Assembly: GCF_006715045.1 (NCBI RefSeq)
Contig: NZ_VFML01000002.1
Span: 372,001 to 436,000, forward strand
Direction: 5' to 3'
Length of the DNA stretch: 64,000 nucleotides
Source: Amycolatopsis cihanbeyliensis
GTDB lineage: Bacteria; Actinomycetota; Actinomycetes; Mycobacteriales; Pseudonocardiaceae
The notes beneath the pieces were generated by a model. The model was given only the letters and a program-made list of their open reading frames with translations. It did no database searches and was not told the DNA's origin. Positions 4,995 to 37,085 of this stretch are shown here, piece after piece (position 1 is the first letter of the stretch; every line of letters begins with the position of its first letter). The translations under genes and the position numbers were made by a program.

Positions 4995-5860
4995 TCGAGC
5001 TCCAGCAGGTCGAGCAGGCTACGCGGGCCGAGCACGGCGGCACCCTCGCCCTGTGCCCTTGCCCGTAGCTCCCGGTCGGCGGTCACCACCACGACGTGGT
5101 CCCGTGGCCGGTCGGCCAGTGCCCCGCGGGCGGTGTCCACCACGGCCTGGTCGCCGTCCCGCTCGGCGGCGACCACCTCCACCAGCCCGTCCGGCGGGGT
5201 GTCCCGTGCCCGACCCTCGACCACCAGTATCACCCGCGGCCACCAGGACCACTCCCCCTCGGCCGGCAGGCCCAGGTCGATGCCGCGCACCCGGGCTAGG
5301 CCACCGAGCCGGTCGCGCAACCGGACCGCGGCGGCGGCGCGGTCCCGCCACCAGCCGTCCGGCCGCGAGCCGATCACGTTCGCCGCGTCCACCACCAGCA
5401 CCAGCTCCCGTTCGAGCTGCGCGCGCAGCCGCGGCCAGGCCGCGGCGAAATCCCGGTGCAGCGGAAGCCGCTCCACCTGCCCGGCCGGCACCCAGCGCAG
5501 CTCGGCGCTCTCCCTGCTGATCGCCCGCGGCCGGACCGGGCCACGCGCGGTGGCCAGCACGGTGGTGTAGCTCCAGGTGCCGTGGTCCTCGGTGGAGGCC
5601 GCGAGTACCCACACCGCCTCGGCCGCGACGGCGGCCTCCTCCTCGGCCTCCCTGGTGGCGGCCTGTGCCGGACTCTCCTCCGGCCGCACGGCGCCGCCCG
5701 GCAACGCCCAGGTACGGCCGTGGTGTGTCCACCAGGCCCTGCGCTGCAGCAGCACGCCGCGCTCGGGGTCGGACAGCAGCAGCCCGGCCGCGCCGTACCG
5801 TCCCCAGTGCCGGTTGCCGCAGGCGCACTTCACGAAGCCTTCCCCGTCACCGAGCAGCAT
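4991..5860 (-). CDS. NUDIX hydrolase fused to a NYN/PIN-like domain
   Basis: The 289-residue protein has two parts. Residues about 10-140 form a NUDIX domain, preceded by a small CACGNRHWG motif and containing the Nudix box from GGAVRPEES to REAEEEAAV. Residues about 145-289 read LVLVVDAANVIGSRPDGWW and end with VVVVTADRELRARAQ, the aspartate-bearing motifs of NYN/PIN-like nucleases. The start ATG at 5860 lies 4 bp after the stop of the ROK kinase gene, so the two are probably cotranscribed. A nucleotide or RNA housekeeping role is likely, but no substrate can be deduced. The combination is common in actinobacteria but little studied. Confidence 0.85.
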   Translation of the reverse strand: MLLGDGEGFVKCACGNRHWGRYGAAGLLLSDPERGVLLQRRAWWTHHGRTWALPGGAVRPEESPAQAATREAEEEAAVAAEAVWVLAASTEDHGTWSYTTVLATARGPVRPRAISRESAELRWVPAGQVERLPLHRDFAAAWPRLRAQLERELVLVVDAANVIGSRPDGWWRDRAAAAVRLRDRLGGLARVRGIDLGLPAEGEWSWWPRVILVVEGRARDTPPDGLVEVVAAERDGDQAVVDTARGALADRPRDHVVVVTADRELRARAQGEGAAVLGPRSLLDLLELD

Positions 5861-18635: not shown

Positions 18636-18698
18636 GGCCAACCCCCCTTCCGCAGTCCTGGCGCCCGACCGACGGCCCGTGGCGTCGCCGCCCTCACC

Positions 18699-18788
18699 GA
18701 TGCCGTCAGGTCTCCGCCCGCCCGCTGTGGACCTGGTGCCGGGGAAGGTGCACCAGGGCCACTGAGCGGACAGAGGCCTCACGGCATC
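18699..18788 (-). ncRNA. Structured leader upstream of rsmH, mraW-motif-like
   Basis: On the minus strand, between mraZ and rsmH, GATGCCGT (18788-18781) can pair with ACGGCATC (18706-18699). Inside lies a 17-bp hairpin: CCGCT and GTGG pair with CCAC and AGCGG, and CCTGGTGC pairs with GCACCAGG, closing the loop ACCTTCCCCG. The mraW RNA motif is known as a structured element upstream of this gene in Actinobacteria. Location and the conserved-looking loop agree with it, but I matched from memory and could not run the covariance model. Confidence 0.6.
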
Positions 18789-18877
18789 CGCGTCCACCAT
18801 CTCCGGGCCGCGCCGGCTCCCCTCACGCCGCCCGCGACCCCCGCCCCCCGACGGCGGGGGTGCGGACGGCCGCGCGA

Positions 18878-31934: not shown

Positions 31935-32957
31935 ATGCCCGAAAACTCGGCCCTGCGCGATGTCGTTGCCGCCCTGCCCAAAGTCGAACTACACGTCCAC
32001 CTCGTCGGCTCGGCGGGCATCGAGACCGTGACCTCGCTGGCCCGCAGGCATCCCGCCTCCGGGGTGCCGACCGACGCCGCCCAGCTGCGCGAGTTCTTCA
32101 CCTTCCGCGACTTCGACCACTTCCTCAAGGTGTACTGGGCCGTGCAGCAGTTGCTGCGCGACAGTACCGATATCCACACCCTGGTCACCGGGCTCGCCGC
32201 GGATCTGGCCGCGCAGAACTGCCGCTACGCGGAGGTGACCGTCACCCCGTACAACCACCTGCTGGACGGCATCCCCGGCGACGAACTGCTGACCGGCCTG
32301 GCCACCGGCCGCGCGGCCGCGGCCGAGGAACACGGAGTGGACCTGGCCTGGTGCTTCGACATTCCCGGGGAGAAGGGAACCAAGGCCGGAAAGGAAACGC
32401 TGGTCTTCGCCCTGACCAACCGGCCCGAGGGCCTGGTCAGCCTCGGCCTCGGCGGCCCGGAGGTCGGGGTCGGGCGAGCGCAGTTCGAGCCCTACTTCAC
32501 CGCTGCCCGCGAGGCCGGCCTGCACAGCGTGCCGCACGCGGGCGAGACCACCGGGCCGGCGACCATCTGGTCGGCCGTGCACGACCTCGGCGCGGAACGG
32601 ATCGGGCACGGGACGAGCTGCACCTCCGATCCGGCGTTGCTCGAATACCTTGGCACGCACGGAATCCCGTTGGAGGTGTGTCCCACGTCCAACGTATGCA
32701 CCCGGCAGGTCCCCTCGATCGAGGCGCATCCCGTCCGCCGGATGCTGGACCACGGGCTGCTGGTGACGCTGAACACGGACGATCCGCCGATGTTCGGCGT
32801 CACGTTGAACGGCGAGTACCTCGCCGTCGCCGAAACCCTCCGCCTGCGGCCGGCCGAACTGGCACGGCTGGCCCGCAACGGCGTCGAGGCCTCGTTCCTG
32901 GAAGGACCCGCCCGCGCCGGGCTGCTCGCCGAGATCGACCGGACTCTCGCTCGCTGA
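31935..32957 (+). CDS. add: Adenosine deaminase-type aminohydrolase
   Basis: Zinc-dependent purine deaminase of 340 residues. Metal ligands His20 and His22 sit in ELHVHLVGSAG; the catalytic Glu is in HAGE (201-204); RIGHG gives the next histidine (225); NTDDP has Asp282-Asp283. The motif set is complete. Family members also include aminodeoxyfutalosine deaminases, so adenosine as substrate is likely but not certain. The ATG has GGGAG upstream (TCAGGGAGTTCGTC). Confidence 0.88.
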   Translation: MPENSALRDVVAALPKVELHVHLVGSAGIETVTSLARRHPASGVPTDAAQLREFFTFRDFDHFLKVYWAVQQLLRDSTDIHTLVTGLAADLAAQNCRYAEVTVTPYNHLLDGIPGDELLTGLATGRAAAAEEHGVDLAWCFDIPGEKGTKAGKETLVFALTNRPEGLVSLGLGGPEVGVGRAQFEPYFTAAREAGLHSVPHAGETTGPATIWSAVHDLGAERIGHGTSCTSDPALLEYLGTHGIPLEVCPTSNVCTRQVPSIEAHPVRRMLDHGLLVTLNTDDPPMFGVTLNGEYLAVAETLRLRPAELARLARNGVEASFLEGPARAGLLAEIDRTLAR

Positions 32958-32970
32958 TCGCGAAATCGTG

Positions 32971-32999
32971 TTGCCGCGCCACGAACTCTTCCCTAGCGT
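32971..32999 (+). promoter_or_regulatory. Promoter for the small super-Shine-Dalgarno transcript
   Basis: TTGCCG (32971-32976), a 17-bp spacer and TAGCGT (32994-32999) lie just behind the add stop codon. Transcription would start near 33006, only about 7 nt before the extended Shine-Dalgarno. The intergenic stretch 32958-33372 contains this unit and no larger gene. Confidence 0.65.
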
Positions 33000-33031
33000 G
33001 GCGGGTACACGGGAAAGGAGGTGGTCCGAAG

Positions 33032-33070
33032 TTGATTGACGACAGGACTCGTGAGGTGGCTGCCCGCTGA
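33032..33070 (+). CDS. 12-residue ORF behind a super-Shine-Dalgarno
   Basis: A TTG at 33032, 10 nt after GGAGG, opens the frame MIDDRTREVAAR (reading TTG as initiator). It is too short to be a domain. The strength of the ribosome binding site and the pairing of its 3' flank suggest either a leader peptide or a ribosome-titrating element. No homology is claimed. Confidence 0.5.
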   Translation: MIDDRTREVAAR

Positions 33071-33168
33071 CGGGCGGCACGCGATAGGACTTTCCGGCAG
33101 GGGACCACTTCCAGACAGTCGCCTGCTTCGTGTGCTTGCCTTTCGGTGAATACCAGGCAGTCACCGGT

Positions 33169-33235
33169 CCCCCGACGCTCCCGGGCACCGGTCCGGCCCG
33201 GGCCCGACCCTCGCGGCCGGGAGCGGCGTCGGGGG
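33169..33235 (+). terminator. Long-stem terminator ending the small transcript
   Basis: CCCCCGACG with CTCCCGG (33169-33184) pairs with CCGGGAG and CGTCGGGGG (33217-33223, 33227-33235), and TCTCTT follows. The stem has 16 paired positions with a 3-nt bulge and a GC-rich loop of about 32 nt. It lies 137 bp before the next gene. Confidence 0.65.
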
Positions 33236-33372
33236 TCTCTTCATGGCACGGCCACCCGCCGTGATCCGCGGCACCGGCTACAGGCGCGCCACCCGCTCGA
33301 ACCCGCGCATCGCGGCGCCGGCGGCGCACAATTCGTTTCGCTTCCCCGTGCCCGGAGGCTAGCGTGGCGACC

Positions 33373-33933
33373 ATGCTCCGGCCGGAATTCCCGATCGGCA
33401 CCGCCCGGCTCGACCTGCGCCCGTTCACCATGGCCGATCTCGAGCAAGTGCACGCCTACCAGTCCCGCGCGGACGTCGCCCGGTACCTGTACTGGGAGCC
33501 GCGCTCGGCCGCCGAGGTCGAGGCGGCACTGGCACGCAGGCTCGACCGGGACCGGTTGACGCGGGAGGGAGACTGCCTCAGCCTTGCCGTCCGGCGGGTG
33601 GACACCGGTCACCTGATCGGCGAACTCGACCTGGACTGGTTGAGCGAGCGGCACCGCAGCGGGGAGATCGGCTTCATCTTCCACCCCGACCAGCACGGCC
33701 ACGGTTTCGCCACCGAGTCGGCCGCGGAACTGCTCCGCCTGGGTTTCACCGGCCTGGGCCTGCACCGGATCATCGCCAGGTGTGACGCACGAAACACGGC
33801 CTCGGCCGGGGTGATGGAGCGGCTCGGCATGCGCCGCGAGGCGTACCTGCGGCACAACGAGATCGTCAAGGGCCGGTGGGCCGACGCCCTGGTCTACGCG
33901 ATCCTGGACTCGGAGTGGACGGCTGGTACCTGA
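33373..33933 (+). CDS. GNAT-family N-acetyltransferase (RimJ/RimL type)
   Basis: A 186-residue acetyltransferase with the acetyl-CoA motif HPDQHGHGFATESAAELLRLGF and the C-terminal GVMERLGMRREAYL typical of the RimJ/L group, which act on ribosomal proteins, aminoglycosides or small amines. I chose the ATG at 33373, because TAGCGT stands 7 nt upstream; an in-frame GTG at 33364 would add three residues. Acceptor unknown. Confidence 0.85.
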   Translation: MLRPEFPIGTARLDLRPFTMADLEQVHAYQSRADVARYLYWEPRSAAEVEAALARRLDRDRLTREGDCLSLAVRRVDTGHLIGELDLDWLSERHRSGEIGFIFHPDQHGHGFATESAAELLRLGFTGLGLHRIIARCDARNTASAGVMERLGMRREAYLRHNEIVKGRWADALVYAILDSEWTAGT

Positions 33934-35043: not shown

Positions 35044-35982
35044 TCAGGAGAGTTCACGAAGGGCCATGGCAAGTCCGGCGAGGCGGTCGGTGGCGTCGGT
35101 GAGGGATTCCTTCGCGGGTTGCGCTCCCCCGCTGCTGGCGGCCACCGCGCGCCCGGCCGCGGCGACCAGGCTGCCGTACTCCTCCAGCCCTTCCTCCAGC
35201 TGCTCGACCAGACCGTGCACGGCCGCCTCCAGCTGGCCGCGTTCGGTGGCAGGCGTGTTCTCCGTCGCTCGCTCGATCGCCTGAATACGCGCGGCGAGGC
35301 TACGCAGCGCGGCGGCCGCCTCGTCCGCCGTGGCACGTGCGTCCTCGACCGATACCTCGGGAACGGTGACCGAGACCCCTGCCGGCGGCTTGGCGAGTTG
35401 GGTGAGCAGCTCGGTGAGCGAGGCCTCACTCTCGGCGAGCCGTTCCATCGGCCCGCGCGCGACCGAGGTGGACGGCGGCAGCGGCGGCGGAGCCGTGCTG
35501 GCGGGCAGCTCGGTCCGGTTCAACGTGCGCAGCCGCATCCCGGCGCGCACGCCGAGGGCACCGAACACCACGGCGGCCGCGACCCCACCGAGGACCAGGC
35601 CCGACACGGTGCTCGCGCCGGTGACGCCCGCGACCACGGCGAGACCGCTCAGGATGGTCAGCACGATCCACAACGTGAGCGCCCGGGACGTCCGCCGCTT
35701 ACGGCGTTCCAGCTTGGCGGCCGGCTCGTTCCAGCGCTCCCACTTGGACTTCAGCTCGGCCACGACCGGCACGTCCTCGACCGAACCGGGCAACGGCAGG
35801 CTGGGACGGCGGCCCCTGTGGCCGGACCTACCGTCCCGCTGCTCGGCGGGCAGGTAACGCTCTACCTGCCGGTAGGCACGCTGGGCGTAGTCGGGCAGGT
35901 GCTCCAGATGCTTCTCCAGCCTGGCCTTGAAGTCACCGAAATCGCGGAACTCGCCGTAATCGCGCCTTCCGGGGCCTGCCAT
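35044..35982 (-). CDS. pspM: PspM-like membrane protein
   Basis: 312-residue protein placed as PspM of the mycobacterial phage-shock operon (Rv2743c) by its position directly after pspA. It has two membrane segments (about 105-121 and 127-148), an N-terminal YAQRAYRQVERYL region and a helical C-terminal domain. PspM anchors the PspA response at the membrane in mycobacteria. Sequence similarity is weak, so the symbol rests mainly on synteny. Its start lies 6 bp after the pspA stop. Confidence 0.7.
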   Translation of the reverse strand: MAGPGRRDYGEFRDFGDFKARLEKHLEHLPDYAQRAYRQVERYLPAEQRDGRSGHRGRRPSLPLPGSVEDVPVVAELKSKWERWNEPAAKLERRKRRTSRALTLWIVLTILSGLAVVAGVTGASTVSGLVLGGVAAAVVFGALGVRAGMRLRTLNRTELPASTAPPPLPPSTSVARGPMERLAESEASLTELLTQLAKPPAGVSVTVPEVSVEDARATADEAAAALRSLAARIQAIERATENTPATERGQLEAAVHGLVEQLEEGLEEYGSLVAAAGRAVAASSGGAQPAKESLTDATDRLAGLAMALRELS

Positions 35983-35988
35983 CGCCGG

Positions 35989-36861
35989 CTACGCCTGGTT
36001 CTTCTGCTGCTCTGCTTGGATCCGGGCCTGGATCTCCTGCTGGATGTTCGCGCTGGGCGCCGCCGCGGACTCACCGGCGGCCGACCCGGAGCCCGCGGCG
36101 GCCTTGTCCGCGGAGCCGTCGGTCACCTGGGCCACCGAATCGCCCTTCATCGAGGCGCGGATCTGCTCCAGCCGGCTGTGCCCGGCCAGCTGCGTGGTCG
36201 AGTGCTGCACCTCCATCATCCGGCCCTGCACCGAGTTCTGTGCCAGCTCGGCCGAGCCGAGCGCCGTGGTGTAGCGCTTCTCGATCTTGTCCCGCACCTC
36301 GTCCAGCGAGGGGGTGTTGCCCGGGGCGGCCAGCTCGGTCATCTGGTTCAGCGAGGCCGAGACCTTCTCCTGCATCTTGGCCTGCTCCAACTGCGAGAGC
36401 AGCTTCGTGCGCTCGGCCAGCTTCTGCTGCAGCATCGAGGCATTGCGCTCGACGGCCTGCTTGGCCTGGTCCGCCGCCTGCAGCGACTGGTCGTGCAGGT
36501 TCTTCAGGTCCTCGATGCTCTGCTCCGCGGTGACCAGCTGGGCGGCGAATCCCTCGGCGGCGTTCTCGAACTCGGTCGCCTTCTGCTCGTCGCCCTTCGA
36601 CCTGGCCTCCTCGGCGAGCACGAGGGCCTGCCGGGTGGAGGCCTGTAGCTTCTCCACCTCGCCGAGCTGGCGGTTCAGCTTCATCTCCAGCTGCCGCTGG
36701 TTCCCGATCACCGATGCGGCCTGCTGGGAGAGCGCCTGGTGATTACGCTGCGCCTCCTCGATGGCCTGCTGGATCTGCACCTTCGGATCGGCATGCTCGT
36801 CGACCTTCGACGAGAACGCCGCCATGAGGTACTTCCAGAACTTCACGAAAGGGTTGGCCAT
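35989..36861 (-). CDS. pspA: Phage shock protein A
   Basis: PspA/IM30 oligomerises on damaged membranes and stabilises them. The 290-residue protein starts [19 protein letters not shown], the amphipathic N-terminal helix of the family, followed by long coiled coils such as [18 protein letters not shown] and a KAAAGSGS low-complexity tail. The ATG at 36861 matches the mycobacterial PspA start. It follows clgR on the same strand behind a hairpin, the order seen in M. tuberculosis. Confidence 0.93.
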
Positions 36862-37085
36862 CTCCTCCGCCTGCCTTCTTGCGTCCCACGTGCCTGTTGA
36901 TCCGCTGGTCTGTGGAACGTCGAAACTTCCCCTGTGCATTTCTCAACGTCCCGACCGCGGCGTTGGGTTCCATCGTGTCAGGTCAGCGCCCGTCGTTCCA
37001 GGCGACCCCGCGGAAATCAGGGATCGGCTCAGGGACGATGCCCCACCACGAGCCGACCGGAGACCCACCGGAGGGCACGCACGGC

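Follow-up and report, generated by a model that had tools for sequence, protein, structure and literature searches.

Leader-peptide ORFs, such as those of trp-type and ribosome-arrest attenuators, are conserved short frames whose translation must rearrange RNA pairing, and they regulate a downstream gene. Dual-function sRNAs with a small ORF, e.g. SgrS and RNAIII, are stand-alone RNAs that combine a Shine-Dalgarno sequence (SD), an ORF, and structure, while tmRNA carries its internal ORF within a defined structure that includes a pseudoknot. Extended SD motifs also shape initiation at ORFs of Staphylococcus aureus, according to the accessible part of the report (PMC13009471).

The RNA analysed here, Ms_IGR-5, shares with the attenuators a conserved short frame whose translation would have to rearrange RNA pairing. 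However, its peptide varies freely, and instead of regulating a downstream gene it appears to end at a terminator-like stem of its own. It resembles SgrS and RNAIII in being a stand-alone RNA with SD, ORF, and structure, but its peptide is not conserved and one strand of the covarying fold is supplied by the ORF. It differs from tmRNA in having no tRNA-like part (ARAGORN found neither a tmRNA nor a tRNA-like domain at the locus, its one gene in the window being a tRNA-Ala elsewhere), and ribosomes would enter via the SD and a start codon. Unlike the S. aureus cases, as far as these are described in the text accessible, its SD is able to pair along the full length of the 16S tail, and its ORF is embedded in a structured RNA that stands alone.

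Ms_IGR-5 (sRNA IGR-5 of Mycobacterium smegmatis) is catalogued in Rfam as RF02471 (“Actinobacteria sRNA Ms_IGR-5”). Transcripts were reported from S. lividans (PMC8079986), S. avermitilis (PMC8780764), and M. smegmatis (PMC10454040), going by the accessible portions of these papers, and ribosome-protected reads were found on its homologues in two mycobacteria, M. abscessus and M. smegmatis (PMC4974804). The accessible text of the latter study warns that footprints are seen on classical ncRNAs too, and the reads thus do not prove translation of Ms_IGR-5. In the literature searched (main texts of mostly open papers) we found no function for this RNA, and a search for papers naming a Mycobacterium tuberculosis counterpart led nowhere. 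Neither the RF02471 match output nor this literature, including the accessible parts of PMC3828370, PMC3774663, PMC8628891, and PMC4046766, describes the ORF, the three pairings reported below (H0, H1, and a pseudoknot), or a spread beyond Actinomycetota.

Material and methods

Searches with the Rfam model in genomes drawn at the level of family, class, and phylum gave 235 places in 234 genomes. The counts are based on 202 copies (the one in the window included), which correspond to 183 distinct stretches from SD to stop codon; some of the compared regions end early at contig ends. Two duplicates (L008 of L127, L103 of L010) and two non-members (L125, L126) were left out, as was L120, in which the SD differs (AAAGGATGTGGTCC) and an ORF is still visible by eye. 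In the frame test, a stretch passed if a canonical start lay 13-20 nt downstream of the point where the SD begins, with a frame that matched the motif GAGGTG and was open through it. Synonymous changes were counted as single-base codon changes among close pairs of 12-codon ORFs. Neighbouring genes were called with a crude gene caller retrained on the genes of the window. For non-actinobacterial groups, the phylum given is the one named in the title of the record from which each search started.

Results

The window, i.e. the whole 64,000-nt stretch of the Amycolatopsis cihanbeyliensis genome that was analysed, contains a full-length match to RF02471 (model positions 1-184 of 184; cmscan 97.1 bits with a cut-off of 45, E 1.6e-20; Table 1). 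The original prediction, made from the raw sequence, knew of no named system like this locus; given the full-length match it amounts to a rediscovery of a catalogued RNA. By covariance-model evidence, the RNA belongs to an Rfam family already known, with an architecture that apparently had not been recognised. The promoter-like pair was found where it had been predicted, and the same layout (TTG...TANNNT) occurs in 139 of the 202 copies compared with 0/202 when the bases upstream of each copy were shuffled once. The predicted strong terminator stands as a stem-loop, but generic scans for sigma-70 promoters and T-run terminators returned nothing in 32900-33400; in several relatives outside Actinomycetota a T-run does follow the terminator-like stem. 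The proposal of a probable autonomous transcription unit is supported.

Table 1. Features of the Ms_IGR-5 locus (window positions).
Feature	Position	Strand	Basis or remark
Ms_IGR-5 RNA (RF02471), probable transcript	33007..33244	+	Covariance-model match, full-length
Promoter-like pair: -35 TTGCCG (32971-32976), 17 bp, -10 TAGCGT (32994-32999)	32971..32999	+	Sequence
H0 5' strand CACG, 5' end of the RNA	33008..33011	+	Best fold of the window copy; covaries across groups
Extended Shine-Dalgarno sequence	33012..33027	+	16 contiguous pairs (two G-U) with 16S tail GGAUCACCUCCUUUCU
12-codon ORF, TTG start, TGA stop	33032..33070	+	TGA at 33068-33070; frame conserved in 174/183 distinct stretches
Pseudoknot, ORF strand GGAC (codons 5-6)	33045..33048	+	Covaries with side loop of the terminator
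H0 3' strand CGTG (codon 7 and first base of codon 8)	33050..33053	+	Best fold of the window copy; covaries
GAGGTG (codons 8-9), internal SD-like motif	33053..33058	+	9 nt before the stop; putative role
H1 5' strand (last base of codon 8 and codons 9-11)	33055..33064	+	Covariation with 33156-33165
Lineage-specific anti-SD GGACCACTTCC	33102..33112	+	11 pairs with the SD; outside the best fold
H1 3' strand, 3' box GGCAGTCACC	33156..33165	+	Placed by flanks; covaries with the end of the ORF
Terminator-like stem-loop, outer stem 33169-33178 / 33226-33235	33169..33235	+	Sequence, fold
Pseudoknot 3' strand GTCC, side hairpin inside the terminator	33191..33194	+	Covariation, fold

The short ORF predicted from a TTG start is present, and its conservation in relatives had been named beforehand as a check that could refute the prediction. 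The result was clear, with the frame test passed by 174 of the 183 distinct stretches against 6 and 1 for the two other frames. Among the 174 framed stretches, the ORF measures 36 nt in 146, 39 nt in 18, 42 nt in 9, and 33 nt in 1, and the distance from SD to start ranges over 15-19 nt, which together indicate that start and stop shift jointly. In 173 of them, the distance from GAGGTG to the stop is exactly 9 nt; in L160 the stop comes one codon later. TTG is a rare start codon in actinobacteria. Here it is the most frequent one (91, compared with 53 ATG and 30 GTG), so that 121/174 stretches start with TTG or GTG. Several of the nine exceptions to the frame test carry in-frame non-canonical starts by eye, namely CTG in L020, L122, L197, and L198, ATT in L023, and ATC in L026 and L030, while L018 has no usual start. 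In L201, a separate start-to-stop frame of about 10 codons is seen with GAGGTG one base out of frame, and L306 seems alike.

The very long SD was likewise confirmed in its place. The original prediction had put about 14 nt of complementarity at 33014-33027 (AAAGGAGGTGGTCC), and pairing in fact reaches 16 nt with GGAUCACCUCCUUUCU, the actinobacterial 16S tail. Allowing G-U, this pairing spans 16 nt in 189 of the 202 copies, 15 nt in 9, 12 nt in 2, and 4 nt in 2. The exact tail was present in 12 of 17 genomes checked, i.e. in 12/13 actinobacterial ones (two of the same genus) and 0/4 from other groups, which limits the claim of full-tail pairing to actinobacteria. A search of the assembly to which the window belongs gave no match to this tail or to the 16S 3' end GGATCACCTCCTTTCT, although two genomes of the same genus have three copies of the latter each. 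The two other AAGGAGGTGRTYC sites in the window genome lie inside long coding stretches by eye. In predicted folds, the mean unpaired fraction was 0.33 for the SD and 0.51 for the start codon.

The ORF also serves as a pairing strand. Helix H1 joins its end to a distant 3' box and has a pair probability of 1.0 in the window RNA, exceeding 0.5 in 114 of 178 predicted folds. In a first set of 121 copies, the box could be placed in 107, and 94.9% of cells were paired compared with a permuted mean of 89.4% (maximum 90.9%), and in the larger set (178/202 placed, 75 distinct pairs) 91.7% compared with 84.2% (maximum 87.1% of 1000), where the permutations, like those for H0 and the pseudoknot, ignore phylogeny. 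Slid partners in the larger set reached only 27-57%. The flank profile for finding the box was first trained on boxes chosen by complementarity, and placement relied on the flanks plus the final three letters of the box (ACC), while its first seven letters played no part; the GGU:ACC pairs are therefore partly by construction, while the six variable pairs, which were not used in placing the box, are not and were paired in 85.9% compared with 73.3% after permutation (maximum 77.4%). On inspection by eye, the Zixibacteria group has a short or weak H1, whereas the Sumerlaeota and Deltaproteobacteria groups have pairs of CUG plus flank with CAG plus flank, mostly with a one-base bulge.

Helix H0 closes a loop that holds both the SD and the start codon. 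Of 179 distinct combinations of its two short segments, 159 allowed a helix of four pairs or more (permuted mean 116.8, maximum 128 of 100 permutations), and the signal was found both in actinobacteria alone (133/151 compared with 109.6, maximum 118) and outside Actinomycetota (26/28 compared with 11.9, maximum 16). The pairs differ by lineage (CACG:CGUG, CACA:UGUG, CGCA:UGCG, CCAG:CUGG, GCAG:CUGC, CGCUG:CAGCG, CGGUG:UACCG, CAGUG:UACUG, and CACUG:CAGUG). For the pseudoknot, GTCC occurred within 70 nt after the box in 161 of the 163 copies that bear GGAC (mean 65 and maximum 79 in 200 shuffles), and it was mostly unpaired in the predicted fold in 141/163. Among the 15 copies without GGAC, inspection by eye revealed changes on both sides in L079, L159, L160, L163, L114, L015, and L017, maintenance of the pairing by G-U in L101, L172, L115, L190, and L192-L194, and an ambiguous case in L124. 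The pair on one side of the pseudoknot core was possible in 72.2% compared with 43.9% after permutation (0 of 2000 reached this value), while the pair on the other side gave no signal (29.6% compared with 28.4%). The ORF strand also has a rival partner in the SD. When the window copy adopts its best fold, the SD bases GGUCC are paired with the ORF bases GGACU, in competition with the pseudoknot. At least 4 of these 5 pairs are possible in 199/202 copies, although the invariance of the SD precludes a covariation test of this pairing. In several relatives from other groups the pseudoknot was not evident by eye. Going by these comparisons, three covarying pairings outside the Rfam structure cover most of codons 5-11 of the ORF.

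The structure given by Rfam instead pairs the SD with the end of the ORF, a helix that we rejected because it lacked covariation (84.4% compared with 84.7% permuted) where H1 covaries. A built-in anti-SD, proposed to form an 11-bp helix with the SD, does exist in the window and was not matched by any of 100 shuffles. Checked in relatives, however, this helix reached p<0.05 in no more than 33 of the 176 copies compared (about 9 expected). Conservation of the pairing segment, also named beforehand as a check, held only in part. It is absent from the best fold of the window RNA (-121.4 kcal/mol) and could be forced only at a cost of about 7 kcal/mol (-114.2 kcal/mol). We thus regard it as lineage-specific and rejected it as the key switch or core of the device. 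The hairpin predicted to hold the stop codon in its loop fared similarly, with a mean score (15.16) above all 100 partner swaps (mean 14.42, maximum 14.78) but p<0.05 in just 18/202 copies (about 10 expected), which is little support for conservation, and it was set aside as weak.

Whether the peptide or its translation is under selection was addressed with synonymous changes, the counts of which are not independent since close ORF pairs overlap. Synonymous changes made up 64 of 384 in codons 2-4 (0.167; 0.227 expected), 86 of 194 in codons 5-7 (0.443; 0.303 expected), and 28 of 126 in codons 8-12 (0.222; 0.295 expected). The excess is confined to codons 5-7, which hold the pseudoknot and H0 motifs, and no purifying selection on residues was seen in this test of 12-codon ORFs. 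Of the 146 twelve-codon ORFs, all have E8 and V9 and 140 have T6, but the conservation of E-V is partly by construction, GAGGTG having been used to locate copies, and T6 is changed to M in six ORFs, where the pseudoknot partner in some cases carries a matching change. A frame that is kept while its residues are free to vary speaks for the act of translation over its product.

In the window, the upstream neighbours encode a formamidopyrimidine glycosylase and an adenosine deaminase, and the downstream neighbours, on the same strand as the RNA, a GNAT acetyltransferase and dihydroorotate dehydrogenase (pyrD). Our crude gene caller placed a downstream gene at 114 loci, on the same strand in 53 and on the opposite strand in 61; by the same caller, the upstream gene was on the same strand in 70 and on the opposite strand in 49 of 119 calls, and the largest cluster of shared neighbours comprised 17 of 121 loci. 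The suggested role as a leader for the next gene was thus dropped, since the neighbours vary among loci and no conserved co-directional downstream gene was found.

Matches to the Rfam model (E <= 0.001) were obtained in 79 of 100 drawn genomes of the same family, 131 of 197 of the class, and 40 of 198 of the phylum, and in none of 14 named control genomes. Each listed matching genome has a single match except G368, which has two (L083, L113). The 21 genomes of the same family without a match (a pattern re-scan produced matches in 4 of them that look chance-like by eye) imply that the RNA is dispensable or replaced there. Absence within the family is mostly genus-wide, affecting every drawn genome of g149, g160, g166, g182, g185, and g193, with exceptions such as G270 and G278.

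Outside Actinomycetota, a pattern of SD, gap, and GAGGTGRCTG matched among the listed records labelled Zixibacteria, Sumerlaeota, Deltaproteobacteria, and Acidobacteria. The exact pattern was present in at least 14 of 132 drawn genomes of Zixibacteria, at least 7 of 40 of Sumerlaeota, and at least 2 of 345 of Deltaproteobacteria, each count including the starting genome, and in at least 1 of 149 of Acidobacteria, where the copy of the starting genome was missed due to a gap longer than the pattern allows; all four counts are lower bounds because an exact pattern misses divergent copies. Stray contamination is made less likely by four copies of the Zixibacteria group that sit 0.98 to 3.44 Mb into their contig, while single copies in other groups, e.g. 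L257, could be misbinned. Searched with patterns that do not include a stop, the 27 distinct sequences whose record or group bears the label of another phylum all have a stop 9 nt after GAGGTG (27/27), and 23 of them have a canonical in-frame start, the rest having AUU (three) or CUG (one); none is open in another frame. ATT is found at the in-frame start position of L346, L347, and L348 behind the same SD, and a start at ATT occurs in infC. The matches listed from viral contigs and named records number 125, of which 108 combine a start with a stop, 10 have only the stop (9 of these with an in-frame CTG by eye), and 7 have no stop. Five of the latter are the viral-contig matches among those listed, every one of which lacks the stop codon, and a plasmid search with the window copy gave no match; an origin from phages or plasmids was thus rejected.

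Discussion

Full-tail pairing of the SD in 189 of 202 copies and the strictly kept frame support the earlier suggestion of a device linked to translation, and Ms_IGR-5 may sense or capture translating ribosomes. We lean, with some reserve, towards a stand-alone structured RNA that is built for ribosome engagement and has two states set by ribosome traffic. Our comparison provides a conserved frame of 10-20 codons, the SD, three pairings in the ORF, and independence from neighbours. As all three pairings use the ORF as a strand, translation and fold should exclude each other, from which we infer the two states. A ribosome on the ORF would have to open H0, H1, and the pseudoknot, and the closed fold would in turn hinder the ribosome. 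Non-AUG starts (UUG being the commonest, with CUG, AUU, and AUC in some lineages) next to a strong SD suggest firm capture of the 30S subunit with slow commitment, and such weak starts might, speculatively, be sensitive to initiation factors. The internal GAGGUG is placed to pair with 16S rRNA while the ribosome is at the stop codon and may hold a terminating ribosome there. Exposure of the CAG-CACC box in the open state or altered stability of the RNA might then be the output, although both are speculative. In the lineage of the window, the extra anti-SD would add a possible SD-closed state.

A simpler explanation would be a ribosome holder or stability device, in which SD and ORF park 30S or 70S and thus titrate ribosomes or protect the RNA, while the fold merely stabilises free RNA. 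The 16-nt complementarity to the 16S tail, the predominance of non-AUG starts, residues that are free to vary, and the ribosome-protected reads that the accessible text of PMC4974804 gives for mycobacteria would all fit such a role. However, three covarying pairings inside the ORF exceed the needs of protection, and binding of 30S alone needs neither a strict frame nor a stop, so we consider this explanation unlikely. The conserved start, frame, and stop, together with the near-constant E8, V9, and T6, could also point to a small-protein gene with a 12-residue peptide as its product and the remainder as UTR, which was among the options of the original prediction. We rejected this option as quite improbable given that codons 2-4 and 8-12 show no synonymous excess and that the excess in codons 5-7 coincides with RNA pairing motifs. 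The exchanges of T6 for M, some with a matching pseudoknot change, and the partly constructed conservation of E-V weigh against it as well.

Rfam and the three transcript reports (PMC8079986, PMC8780764, and PMC10454040, in their accessible portions) class the RNA as an sRNA, and it might accordingly be a non-coding regulator in which GGAGGUGGUCC or the CACC box pairs with mRNAs or rRNA and the ORF is incidental; the outcome of the frame test (174 against 6 and 1) and the invariable stops outside Actinomycetota (27/27) make this very improbable. Least credible of all is a role as leader or attenuator for what lies downstream, in the window the GNAT acetyltransferase and pyrD. A small ORF followed by a terminator is the classic layout of such leaders and the next genes in the window are on the same strand, but the divided orientation of downstream genes (53 same, 61 opposite of 114) and the small largest neighbour cluster (17/121) contradict it. 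Furthermore, the pseudoknot uses the loop of a finished terminator, which leaves no antiterminator.

Returning to the two-state RNA, a wider version of it would be a ribosome-gated RNA class, so far unrecognised, that spans phyla. Such an independent transcript would capture ribosomes by a duplex along the full 16S tail; the passage of a ribosome through a variable frame of 10-20 codons, with weak starts and an internal SD near the stop, would be the mechanical input that opens or closes the fold of H0, H1, and pseudoknot, and the RNA would thereby read initiation or termination capacity and act in trans. We put this forward tentatively, as a possible but rather doubtful extension. If ribosome sensing proved true, Ms_IGR-5 would be a stand-alone RNA sensor rather than a cis leader. 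The selected frame, the full-tail SD, and the fold built largely from the ORF turn an “unknown sRNA” into a concrete candidate device and extend it to genomes outside Actinomycetota. Moreover, Ms_IGR-5 offers a natural test of how a 16-bp SD duplex affects initiation.

Some further elements were observed elsewhere in the window. A match to the mraW leader RNA (Rfam RF01746, 67.5 bits) lies at 18688-18795 on the minus strand, and the tRNA-Ala(cgc) called by ARAGORN at 5305-5401, also on the minus strand, measures 97 nt, which is long for a tRNA-Ala. At 35044-36939 on the same strand, a PspA/IM30 protein adjoins a protein of the Rv2743c family.
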